Origin: Actinomadura sp. NBRC 104412
GTDB taxonomy: Bacteria; Actinomycetota; Actinomycetes; Streptosporangiales; Streptosporangiaceae
Assembly (NCBI RefSeq): GCF_030269515.1
Contig: NZ_BSTM01000001.1
Location: 1 to 64,000 of the forward strand
Reading direction: 5' to 3'
Length of the DNA: 64,000 nucleotides
Part shown: positions 35,767 to 39,808 of the stretch, piece after piece
Layout: each line of letters starts with the position of its first letter
Position numbering within the stretch: the stretch's first letter is position 1
Program-made: the position numbers and the translations under genes
Notes under the pieces: generated by a model
What the model was told of the DNA's origin: nothing
What the model saw: the letters and a program-made list of their open reading frames with translations, nothing else
The model's database searches: none

Positions 35767-35780
35767 AGGACCTTGGTCCC
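35767..35780. promoter_or_regulatory. DosR/DevR-type box between doxX and the Rv1733c-like gene
   Basis: AGGACCTTGGTCCC, one mismatch from the perfect palindrome GGGACCTTGGTCCC. It is about 98 bp upstream of doxX and 120 bp upstream of the divergent gene at 35901, so it could serve both. Confidence 0.65.
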
Positions 35781-35900
35781 TCATTTCCACGTCCCATCGG
35801 GGCCATATGCCGTGCCGCATGAGACTTTTGCCCCTCCGAAGCCGGCCGACCGGCGGATTAGCGTCGCCAGACGCGAAGGAGTTTCGTGCTGGAGGTCGTG

Positions 35901-36497
35901 ATGCGAGGCTCGGGCATCGGCGCGTTGTGTACGCGCGTGAACCGGCTGCGGCGGCGGTGCGGATTCGATCGCAACGACCTGCGCCGCGACATCGACCGCG
36001 CACAGACCCGCATCGCCTGCGGCCTCGTCCTGTGTTTCCTGGCCGCCGCCCCGGTCGCCGGGTCGGCCGCCGGTCAGGCCGCCTACGATCGCGGGATCCG
36101 GGTCGAACGGCACGAGAAGGCGACCCGCCATCTGGTGACCGCCACCGTCGTCGAGGTCGGCACACGCACACCGGGCGCCCAGCCCGGCGTCTGGGTGACC
36201 TGGACCGAACCCGACGGCAGCCGGCACACCGGCACCGCCGCCGTCTGGCGCGGCACACCCGACACAGGCGAAACCCAGCGGATGTGGGTCACCGACTCGG
36301 GCAAGCCCACCGTCCGGCCCCGATGGCGGTCCCAAAGCGTCTTCGACGCCTGGGCCGCCGGGCTCGCCGCGGCGCTGGGCGTGGCCCTCCCGCTCGCGCT
36401 GACCTACACGCTCGTACGACGCCTGAACGACCGCCGCCGCTACCGCGGCTGGGACGCGGCCTGGGCACGCCTCGACCACCGATTCAGGCGCTCGTGA
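35901..36497 (+). CDS. Rv1733c-family two-helix membrane protein
   Basis: 198-residue protein with one helix near 36-58 (ARIACGLVLCFLAAAPVAGS region), an extracellular beta-rich middle (RHLVTATVVEV ... GVWVTWTEPDGSRHTG ... RMWVTDSGKPT) and a second helix near 151-172. This layout and the motif order resemble Mycobacterium Rv1733c, a DosR-regulon membrane antigen of unknown function. The start was set to the ATG at 35901 because GGAGGT lies just before it. Divergent from doxX, with a DosR-like box between. Confidence 0.7.
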   Translation: MRGSGIGALCTRVNRLRRRCGFDRNDLRRDIDRAQTRIACGLVLCFLAAAPVAGSAAGQAAYDRGIRVERHEKATRHLVTATVVEVGTRTPGAQPGVWVTWTEPDGSRHTGTAAVWRGTPDTGETQRMWVTDSGKPTVRPRWRSQSVFDAWAAGLAAALGVALPLALTYTLVRRLNDRRRYRGWDAAWARLDHRFRRS

Positions 36498-36613
36498 CCG
36501 AATCGTCGACGACCGCGCGCCGTGCTGCCCGGTATCGGCTGCCCGGTATCGACGTCGGCAAGGACGCAGGGGCCAAGAAGACCCCCACCCGCAGGTGACA
36601 GGAAGGGACGCGT

Positions 36614-36648
36614 GCCCCGTCGGCAGAGGTGGAATCCCCCGACGGGGC
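36614..36648. terminator. Bidirectional hairpin between convergent genes
   Basis: 10-bp stem GCCCCGTCGG/CCGACGGGGC with a 15-base loop, between the ends of the Rv1733c-like gene and the convergent stress-protein gene. Confidence 0.55.
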
Positions 36649-36661
36649 TGTGTGCCGCCCC

Positions 36662-37519
36662 TTACCGGCTTCGCGCGATGGCGGCCGGGCAGTGGGAGTG
36701 GTGGATCACGCCGTGGCTGACCGAGCCGAGCCTGGGAAGGTCGAGCCAGTTGTGGTCGTGCGCCCCCACGACGACCAGATCGGCGGTGCGGGACGCGTCG
36801 GTCAGCGCGGCCACCGGGTGCGCACCCAGCACCTCTTCGGTCACCTCGACACTCGGATGAGCCTTGCGCCAGCGCGCGTGCGCTTCGATGATCTGCCAGC
36901 GCATCTTCTCCTCCGCGGCCTTGACCTCCACCGGGTCACGGATGTCGGCCAGATCGCCCACCGGCCGCCAGGCGTGCAGCACCCGGACCCGGGCCTCGCG
37001 TACGGCGGCGGCCTCGAAGGCGTACTTCAGCGGCACGGCGGGATCGGCGACCAGGTCCAGACCGACGACGATCTCACCGTGCGGCGACGTGGCCTCACCC
37101 CGCACGATCACCACCGGGCCCAGCGCGTGCGAGGCCATGCGCAACCCGATCGAGCCCAGCATCAGGCCGGCGAACCCACTCAGGCCGCGATGCCCCACCA
37201 CCAGCTCGAAGGCATGCCGGGACTGGCCGCGCAGGGCCGTGGCCGGGTGCTCGGCCACCAGCTCGGTGCTCACCTCGATCCCGGGACGGTGCGCACAGGC
37301 CCGCCGCCGGGCCGCGTCCAAGATCTCCTCCCCGGCGGCGGCAACGGTGTCGGCCGCCCGCCTGGGGGCGAACAGCGGCAGCTCGTACAGGCTCTTGTCG
37401 ATCGAGTGCACGATGTGCAACCTGCGGCCACGCGCCGCCGCCTCCTCGGCCGCCCACAGGACGGCACGGTCCGCGCCCGCGGAGGCATCGGCGCCCACGA
37501 CGATGGGATCGGACATCAT
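36662..37519 (-). CDS. Tandem universal stress protein (two UspA domains)
   Basis: 285-residue cytoplasmic protein made of two Usp domains. Domain 1 (about 1-140) starts IVVGADASAGADRAVLWAA and has the ATP-binding pattern G-2x-G-9x-GS in GHRGLSGFAGLMLGS. Domain 2 (about 148-285) keeps the VVVGAHDHNWLDLPRLGSVS segment with one Gly changed, so its nucleotide site may be impaired. Start ATG 37519 follows GGAGGAGCTGAGG. Two DosR-like boxes lie 95 and 145 bp upstream. Usp genes are classic DosR/OsdR targets. Confidence 0.88.
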   Translation of the reverse strand: MMSDPIVVGADASAGADRAVLWAAEEAAARGRRLHIVHSIDKSLYELPLFAPRRAADTVAAAGEEILDAARRRACAHRPGIEVSTELVAEHPATALRGQSRHAFELVVGHRGLSGFAGLMLGSIGLRMASHALGPVVIVRGEATSPHGEIVVGLDLVADPAVPLKYAFEAAAVREARVRVLHAWRPVGDLADIRDPVEVKAAEEKMRWQIIEAHARWRKAHPSVEVTEEVLGAHPVAALTDASRTADLVVVGAHDHNWLDLPRLGSVSHGVIHHSHCPAAIARSR

Positions 37520-38803: not shown

Positions 38804-38910
38804 AAGACCAGACTTCGACCGCACCAGCGGCCCGAGCAGAGCCGAAAGTCCACCCTTCCGGGGGGCATCCGCACCCCGCGGCCTCCTATCGCCCACTATC
38901 TCCCACGCTT

Positions 38911-38924
38911 GGGACCTTGGTCCC
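38911..38924. promoter_or_regulatory. Perfect DosR/DevR-type palindrome
   Basis: GGGACCTTGGTCCC, fully palindromic, between the divergent Rv2629-like gene (108 bp away) and the response-regulator gene (100 bp away). It may control both and give the regulator positive autoregulation. Confidence 0.75.
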
Positions 38925-39023
38925 ACGCAACACGTGGCCTGCGGCCCTCTTTCAGGCCCACACGGCCCGGTAGCGTCCTTACTGAGGACGACCACCACCG
39001 TTAGAGGCGAGGGGAACGGTGCC

Positions 39024-39701
39024 ATGAGCGCCCACGACGCGACCACCATCCGGGTGTTCCTGATGGACGACCACGAGGTCGTCCGCCGGGGCGTGGCCGC
39101 CCTGCTGTCCGCCGAAGACGACATCGAGATCGTCGGGGAGGCCGGCACCGCCGCCGAGGCCCTGGCCCGGATCCCGGCCGCCCGTCCCGATGTGGCCGTG
39201 CTGGACGTACGGCTGCCCGACGGCGACGGCGTCAGCGTGTGCCGCGAGATCCGCTCGGCCATGCCCGAGGTCGCCTGCCTCATGCTGACCTCCTTCGACG
39301 ACGAGAACGCCCTGTTCGACGCCGTCATGGCCGGTGCCGCCGGATACGTCCTCAAGCAGATCCACGGCTCCGACCTGGTCGGCGCGGTCCGCACCGTCGC
39401 CTCCGGCCAGTCTCTCCTCGACCCCCGCTCCACCGCCCGCATGCTGGAACGGCTCCGCGAACGCCAGGAACGCAAAGACCCGCTCCAAGCCCTGACCGGG
39501 CAGGAACGCCAGATCCTGGAACTGATCGGCGAAGGACTGACCAACCGGCAGATCGGCGAACGCATGTTCCTGGCCGAGAAGACCGTCAAGAACTACGTCT
39601 CCAACCTGTTCGCCAAGCTCGGCATGCACCGCCGTACCCAGGCCGCCGCCTACGCCGCCCAGCTCAAGGCCGAAGACGCCAAAAGCCGCAACAACGACTG
39701 A
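39024..39701 (+). CDS. devR: NarL-family response regulator, DosR/DevR (OsdR) type
   Basis: 225-residue response regulator. Receiver domain: acidic pair DD (15-16), phospho-Asp 61 in VAVLDVRLPDGDG, Thr 89, Lys 111. LuxR-type HTH in the last 65 residues: TGQERQILELIGEGLTNRQI and FLAEKTVKNYVSNLFAKLGM. The K-x2-KN pattern in the recognition helix is the one DosR uses to contact its GGGAC box. The ATG at 39024 follows GAGGGGAACGG. No histidine kinase (DevS/DosT/OsdK type) lies nearby, so its sensor must be elsewhere. Likely activator of the surrounding genes. Confidence 0.88.
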   Translation: MSAHDATTIRVFLMDDHEVVRRGVAALLSAEDDIEIVGEAGTAAEALARIPAARPDVAVLDVRLPDGDGVSVCREIRSAMPEVACLMLTSFDDENALFDAVMAGAAGYVLKQIHGSDLVGAVRTVASGQSLLDPRSTARMLERLRERQERKDPLQALTGQERQILELIGEGLTNRQIGERMFLAEKTVKNYVSNLFAKLGMHRRTQAAAYAAQLKAEDAKSRNND

Positions 39702-39794
39702 CACTCGCAACCGCCGGCCCAGGGCCCGGCACCTGCACGACGTTCGCCCGGCTCGAAGGAGCGCCGGTCACGCGGACATCGCGTCCTCGAAAGC

Positions 39795-39808
39795 AGGACC
39801 TTCGTCCC
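39795..39808. promoter_or_regulatory. DosR/DevR-type box upstream of the pyridoxamine-oxidase-fold gene
   Basis: AGGACCTTCGTCCC, two changes from the perfect palindrome, ending 37 bp before the start codon, where an activator would touch RNA polymerase. Confidence 0.6.

Follow-up and report, generated by a model that had tools for sequence, protein, structure and literature searches.

A DosR/OsdR-type regulator among clustered palindromic boxes in Actinomadura: a candidate regulator end of a low-oxygen switch

The DNA considered here (hereafter the window) is a stretch of 64,000 nucleotides from Actinomadura sp. NBRC 104412, taken from contig NZ_BSTM01000001.1 of assembly GCF_030269515.1. Within it, a block of 5175 bp (35103-40277) carries the gene for a response regulator of the DosR/DevR/OsdR type. 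The same block holds genes for a Balon/Rv2629-like protein, a universal stress protein (Usp), an Rv1733c-family protein, a DoxX-like protein and a pyridoxamine 5'-phosphate oxidase-family (PNPOx) protein, and its intergenic gaps contain five palindromic boxes (Table 1). We consider it highly probable that the block is the regulator end of a two-component switch for low oxygen, or for nitric oxide (NO) or carbon monoxide (CO), and that its partner is the single full-length DevS-type kinase of this genome, which is encoded on another contig. This view draws on the homology of the regulator, the clustering and placement of the boxes, their recurrence in relatives, the features of the kinase, and the co-occurrence of regulator and kinase.

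Table 1. Genes and boxes of the block, followed by the adjoining cytochrome bd genes. Mismatches are counted against GGGACC-N2-GGTCCC; distances are to start codons.
Feature	Position	Strand	Match	Context
DosR/DevR/OsdR-type response regulator, 225 amino acids	39024..39701	+	Pfam Response_reg and GerE; DevR 3c3w, E 1.9e-81; 60% identity	
Balon/Rv2629-like protein, baeRF family 2, 368 amino acids	37697..38803	-	Pfam baeRF_family2; 8v9k	Divergent from regulator
Universal stress protein	36662..37519	-	Pfam Usp, E 9e-38	Two matched Usp stretches
Rv1733c-family protein	35886..36497	+	NF050032, 133.8 bits (cut-off 80)	
DoxX-like protein (weak assignment)	35103..35669	-	Pfam DoxX, 19.6 bits (below cut-off 23.6)	
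PNPOx-family protein	39846..40277	+	Pyridox_ox_2, E 7e-31	
Box GGGACCTTGGTCCC	38911..38924		0 mismatches	Between divergent Rv2629-like and regulator genes; 107 / 99 bases
Box AGGACCTTGGTCCC	35767..35780		1 mismatch	Between divergent DoxX-like and Rv1733c-family genes; 97 / 105 bases
Box GGGGCCAAGGTCCC	37614..37627		1 mismatch	94 bases before Usp gene
Box GGGACCACGGTCCT	37664..37677		1 mismatch	Second Usp-gene box; 50 bases from first
Box AGGACCTTCGTCCC	39795..39808		2 mismatches	37 bases before PNPOx gene
cydA, cytochrome bd subunit I	33619..35007	-	Pfam	Just past DoxX-like gene
cydB, cytochrome bd subunit II	32553..33602	-	Pfam	

The regulator

The regulator has an architecture of the NarL type, with a receiver domain and a LuxR/GerE helix-turn-helix. 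Its closest solved structure is DevR of Mycobacterium tuberculosis, to which it is identical at 60% of 208 aligned residues, and the next is VraR (E 8e-46). Equivalents of DevR D8, D9, D54, T82, K104, K179, K182 and N183 are all kept. Among these we take D54 to be the phospho-acceptor, and K179, K182 and N183 presumably form the K-x2-K-N signature of the recognition helix and contact DNA. The recognition helix reads AEKTVKNYVSNLFAKLG in the regulator and AEKTVKNYVSRLLAKLG in DevR, in agreement with a first-pass annotation of this DNA that had proposed a DosR recognition helix here.

The assignment of the protein to the DosR/OsdR type, also proposed in that annotation, is well supported because DevR is its top structure match, because the overall identity and the key residues are retained, and because its box recurs in relatives. 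No DosR model appeared among the best 25 of 108 NCBIfam matches, and none of those 25 reached its cut-off. The best-scoring paralog in the same genome is only 42% identical, and we therefore count a single regulator of this type. The nearest named loci, judged by the regulator, belong mostly to Actinomadura, the best being that of A. hibisca at 91%. A search for plasmid-borne close copies returned two records only, with a partial match, and this candidate was set aside.

Boxes in the block

The five sites resembling GGGACC-N2-GGTCCC lie exactly where the first-pass annotation had placed them, one of them being an exact match and the other four near matches. All five fall in the intergenic 18% of the block and none is inside a gene. 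The claim that they stand before the named genes holds as well, since each of the four gaps in which a gene starts carries a box, and the sole convergent gap (36498-36661) is without one.

The number of sites by itself is not informative. With up to two mismatches allowed, the whole window has nine sites compared with 13.9 expected from shuffled sequence, a raw count that is not significant. Because this count is below that of the shuffles, the case for the boxes rests on clustering and placement rather than on number. Across the genome (7.85 Mb), 91 sites have at most one mismatch, compared with 44 for the reversed pattern, and at this genomic rate the block would be expected to hold 0.06 such sites, where four are present (Poisson 5e-7). 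When 60 palindromes with the same half-site letters were compared, the real one alone reached four sites in the block at this threshold. At up to two mismatches, three of the 60, the real one among them, reach five.

A search for Rfam elements found none above gathering score in 28000-42000. A hairpin of nine pairs is present at 37547-37571, in the Usp leader past the nearer box and ahead of the start codon, and it might act on the Usp mRNA.

Recurrence of the boxes in relatives

The box at 38911 is found again upstream of the regulator in relatives. We collected 80 loci of named relatives, some of them from the same genome, and 79 had at least 200 bases upstream of the regulator. The best box in this upstream region has at most one mismatch in 29 of the 79, whereas 40 permuted palindromes gave a mean of 0.35 loci and a maximum of 3.

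Counts by gene family used a looser definition (a box with at most two mismatches within 250 bases upstream, for which permuted-motif controls gave ~7%), and a box in a gap between two genes that face each other was counted for both. Upstream boxes were present for the regulator (46/84), PNPOx (37/66), DoxX-like (16/25), Rv1733c-like (9/13) and Usp (43/92) genes, and likewise for the further families DevS (22/58), CBS-BON (9/34), Hsp20 (5/9), GH65 (6/8) and NarG-fusion (4/8). CydC/CydD-like genes had none (0/13). Other genes stood at 118/861, and this excess over the controls may include some unlabelled regulon members near the regulator.

A candidate kinase on another contig

A kinase within the block was sought and rejected, as no histidine kinase occurs among the nine scanned proteins of 32553-41802, and genome-wide HisKA_3 and DevS searches gave no match inside the window. 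The genome has one full-length match to a DevS-type kinase, on contig C48 (C48:19153-20883), which is 58% identical to a relative's kinase. It matches the DevS GAF chain with an E value of 5.8e-53 and keeps the His and the Tyr at the heme positions. A box with two mismatches lies upstream, in a gap common to this gene and a second PNPOx gene. Because the window starts at base 1 of its contig (C1) and the kinase gene has over 14 kb of C48 on either side, the kinase and regulator genes must be at least about 50 kb apart.

In relatives the two genes are commonly close together. Of the relatives' loci, 66 include 3 kb to either side of the regulator. A DevS-type gene lies no more than 3 kb away in 44 of them, being upstream and divergent in 22, downstream and convergent in 17 and otherwise arranged in 5, and in the remaining 22 it is either further off (4) or missing from the locus (18). 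Five kinases from these loci were scanned; four have the GAF-GAF-HisKA_3-HATPase architecture, and the one of those four that was searched matches DevS.

Co-occurrence was examined in 65 genomes of the same genus, including this one, at thresholds of E 1e-75 for the regulator and 1e-120 for the kinase. Both genes are present in 48 genomes and neither in 15, with one genome having the regulator alone and one the kinase alone (Fisher 1.2e-12, a value that ignores kinship). It is from this co-occurrence that we infer the C48 kinase to be the partner of the regulator. The 48 pairs are separated by at most 5 kb in 38 genomes and by 9.8 to 14.1 kb in four, and they are on different contigs in six, this genome included. 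A kinase beside the regulator, a feature of layout and not one that defines the family biochemically, is a trait of S. coelicolor and of 38 of the 48 genomes that is not found here.

Boxed genes elsewhere in the genome

Intergenic boxes also precede genes of regulon-type families on other contigs. On C48, boxes with one and two mismatches precede a small gene and a GH65 gene. On C13, three boxes (one, two and two mismatches) precede a gene for a CBS-BON protein, and a box with one mismatch precedes both a gene for an MFS-NarG fusion, accompanied by NarH, NarJ and NarI, and a divergent DUF2243 gene. On C15, a box with two mismatches stands before a gene with a DHODB-type iron-sulfur domain, followed by Hsp20. 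The fusion that heads the boxed nitrate reductase operon (L155:8653-13539) joins an MFS transporter to a molybdopterin oxidoreductase in 1628 amino acids, and is NarG-type by its operon.

Pattern sites are not confined to such places. In five of six further stretches that were fetched, they lie inside called genes, the exception being an intergenic site at L162:4297. The best pattern site at L141:7609 is inside a called gene, and that at L156:7629 is in a gene call of marginal score and may be intergenic. A perfect box (L158:966) was also noted on a contig of 3.3 kb, C72, that has no called gene.

The proposal that a regulon scattered in mycobacteria is condensed in this block had to be abandoned. 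Boxed loci are present on C48, C13 and C15, and a genome of the same genus with the best-scoring regulator (G062, 92%) has one larger island of ~23 kb with many intergenic boxes, where counterparts of the GH65, CBS-BON, several Usp, Hsp20, PNPOx, regulator and DevS genes lie together. This ~23 kb stretch showed no counterparts of the DoxX-like, Rv1733c-like, Rv2629-like, NarG-fusion, DUF2243 and DHODB-type genes. The gene caller had fused the regulator region of G062 with that of the kinase, and the regulator was placed by a separate genome search. Next to the island of G062, the window resembles a single piece of a dispersed set. In another genome (G051), a boxed cluster between Usp genes (L203:3192-14082) includes a P-type ATPase-hemerythrin fusion, an Rv1733c-like gene, a wax ester synthase/DGAT gene and an Rv2629-like gene.

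Proposed mechanism and its alternatives

The steps of sensing, phosphotransfer, binding and activation that we propose, and the roles of the products, are predictions from sequence. Falling oxygen (or NO or CO) would be sensed by the remote heme-GAF kinase on C48, which would then transfer phosphate to D61 of the regulator. Once phosphorylated, the regulator dimer would bind the GGGACC-N2-GGTCCC boxes, which lie 94 to 107 bases ahead of the start codon for the regulator, Rv2629-like, Usp, Rv1733c-family and DoxX-like genes, and 37 bases ahead of it for the PNPOx gene. Binding would activate these genes, including the regulator's own, and elsewhere in the genome the kinase, PNPOx, GH65, CBS-BON, nitrate reductase and Hsp20 genes.

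Several observations count against this scheme. The equivalent of DevR T205 is Ala in the regulator, and a simple scan of the block for sigma-70 promoters gave none. The box at 39795 is weak alone, as a site with two mismatches is not unusual, and its support comes from its position and from the order regulator-box-PNPOx, which is found again in the locus of a relative (L024). The stretches on other contigs were a chosen part of the first 50 of 91 and the first 50 of 65 sites, so that the list of targets is selected and incomplete. Several of their boxes, that of the kinase included, have two mismatches and are of a kind common by chance, which means that place and gene content must carry the case for them. 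Finally, the genome is a draft of 131 contigs, and in four of the other five genomes whose regulator and kinase genes are on different contigs, one gene lies less than 3 kb from the first base of its contig, where the separation may be an assembly break.

A regulator of the DosR family might instead answer to another signal, such as starvation, development or redox state, by way of a different NarL-type kinase. In favour of this are the 33 HisKA_3 matches in the genome and the lack of a kinase beside the regulator. In Streptomyces, moreover, OsdR controls stress and development genes and is tied to stress and sporulation (PMC5069765). Set against this are the single full-length DevS-type kinase, with its His and Tyr at the heme positions and its upstream box of two mismatches, and the co-occurrence of that kinase type with the regulator across the genus. 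On balance we judge another signal to be improbable. Far less probable still is that the palindromes are accidents of sequence or operators of another regulator, even though the window holds no more sites at up to two mismatches than shuffled sequence does and many of the genomic sites examined fall within genes. Against this idea stand the clustering of the boxes, their intergenic placement and their return before the regulator gene of relatives, and a chance origin was rejected on the grounds of clustering and recurrence.

The Rv2629-like gene

The protein encoded divergently from the regulator matches the Rv2629 chain of a Balon structure (8v9k, E 1.6e-9) and a family profile over its full length (7e-45). 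Like the Balon/Rv2629 hibernation factors (PMC10901736), it has homology to Rv2629 along its whole length and is without a GGQ or NIKS motif. Induction of Rv2629 by hypoxia has also been described. The earlier label of Rv2629-like is borne out by homology and falls short by score, the protein reaching 105.4 bits where the curated NCBIfam cut-off for the Rv2629 family is 320. Eight scanned relatives are likewise below 320 bits, including a second copy in this genome (on contig C23) that is nearer to Rv2629 by score (249.9 bits) and has no upstream box with two or fewer mismatches.

The protein also departs from its nearer relatives in a loop of the middle domain. In an alignment of 71 chosen sequences, 84 columns are at least 88% conserved, and the window protein differs at 25 of these. 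Seventeen of the differences fall at residues 150-178, a stretch in which most relatives have GGWSQ-type motifs and the window protein has no GGxSQ-type loop. The median relative keeps 96% of the conserved columns and the lowest keeps 67%. A close relative (P0002, 83 to 86% identical) covers 24 of the 25 columns and departs at every one of them, in 21 cases with the letter of the window protein, and the loop of another (P0006) is likewise changed. These observations speak against fresh decay. In archaeal and actinobacterial VLRF-1 release factors the GGxSQ motif holds the catalytic glutamine, and the same paper reports little conservation of the loop across baeRF family 2 at large, suggesting a non-catalytic insertion into the ribosomal A-site (PMC6514570). 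Several relatives of the GGWSQ type carry an NCBI name that denotes peptidyl-tRNA hydrolysis.

A copy of the same type is found in 7 of 64 other genomes of the genus (44 to 46% identity), and two of these seven also carry a second copy with a shorter match (47 and 48%). A box with at most two mismatches lies upstream of five of the seven best copies of this type, compared with none of 19 scorable copies of the other type (23 with a fetched locus were tried and four could not be placed). Within the stretch around the regulator, none of the 80 named loci has an Rv2629-like gene. In the window this gene occupies the slot upstream of the regulator in which relatives commonly have the kinase, and it shares the box at 38911 with the regulator.

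The window copy may encode a blocker of the A-site that does not hydrolyse, or it may be degenerate, and its role at the ribosome is uncertain because the loop of its near relatives is absent. One conceivable arrangement is that a single operator raises the regulator and an A-site-blocking silencer of the ribosome together, in which case ribosome shutdown would be the first output of the switch and an independently evolved hibernation factor would sit in the kinase slot. We hold this to be unlikely, and slightly more so than at first, because the literature calls the loop poorly conserved across baeRF family 2. A decaying relative of release factors that happens to lie beside the regulator, with no function at the ribosome, is a possibility to which we give appreciable weight while still doubting it. 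This possibility concerns one part of the block and is compatible with the proposed switch. The low score and the loss of 25 of 84 conserved columns are what such decay would leave behind. The open frame of 368 amino acids, the sharing of the changes with P0002 and the boxes upstream of same-type genes argue against it, and a loop that varies across the family (PMC6514570) need not signify decay.

Comparison with known systems

The relationship to the DevR(DosR)-DevS/DosT system of M. tuberculosis begins with the regulator, whose identity to DevR was given above. Further points of likeness are GGGAC-type palindromes and members of the Rv1733c, Usp, Hsp20, CBS, nitrate and Rv2629 types. M. tuberculosis has two kinases (DevS and DosT), whereas one full-length DevS-type kinase was found here. 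Unlike in that species, cytochrome bd genes lie beside the block and the Rv2629-like gene is directly divergent from the regulator.

The OsdRK system of S. coelicolor (SCO0203/SCO0204) likewise has a DosR-type regulator whose gene lies amid a cluster of palindromic boxes, and boxed Usp, PNPOx and nitrate reductase genes (PMC5069765). In one region of 22 genes there, eight sites near osdR are predicted to control 20. The clustering of targets near the regulator has thus already been published for Streptomyces and is not new. The box consensus given for S. coelicolor is AGGGCCGATCGGCCCT, compared with GGGACC-N2-GGTCCC here, and its kinase gene is in an operon with the regulator gene, whereas the kinase gene of the present genome is on another contig (PMC5069765). 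Because OsdR binds M. tuberculosis DevR promoters in vitro, and does so better when phosphorylated (PMC5069765), our reading of the boxes gains support by analogy.

What is unusual about the block is its layout, in which the kinase gene is elsewhere, an Rv2629-like gene diverges from the regulator across one box, and cytochrome bd genes adjoin. No title among the listed open-licence papers concerned a DosR-type regulon in Actinomadura, which is not proof of absence. With these findings a dormancy regulon of the DosR type, known from Mycobacterium and Streptomyces, would reach into an Actinomadura-type genus, where the box, the regulator and the kinase all lend themselves to cell-free experiments. 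The genes of regulon type form one island in one genome and are scattered in a relative, and the assembly or break-up of the set can be traced over the 65 genomes. A Balon-type gene on the regulator's box would link hypoxia control to ribosome hibernation outside mycobacteria, which makes for a direct question at the bench.

Gene assignments and neighbouring genes

The gene families named by the first-pass annotation are confirmed in part. The Rv1733c-family protein scores above its cut-off and the Usp and PNPOx assignments stand, whereas the DoxX match remains below threshold.

On the other side of the DoxX-like gene, cydA, cydB and CydD- and CydC-type ABC genes form one run on the minus strand (29117-35007) that adjoins the boxed block. 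A box of their own for cydAB was looked for and rejected, the best upstream match having four mismatches. All three cydA genes in fetched relatives have an upstream box with at most two mismatches, and co-control of cydAB with the block is possible. In three genomes of the same genus (L196, L197 and L200), a cyd cluster lies within ~8 kb of a boxed Rv2629-like gene, with cydA 54 to 56% identical. Downstream of the PNPOx gene, a gene for 503 amino acids on the minus strand (40291-41802) matches HPF1 (histone PARylation factor 1) in part, with 35.8 bits where the cut-off is 27.1.

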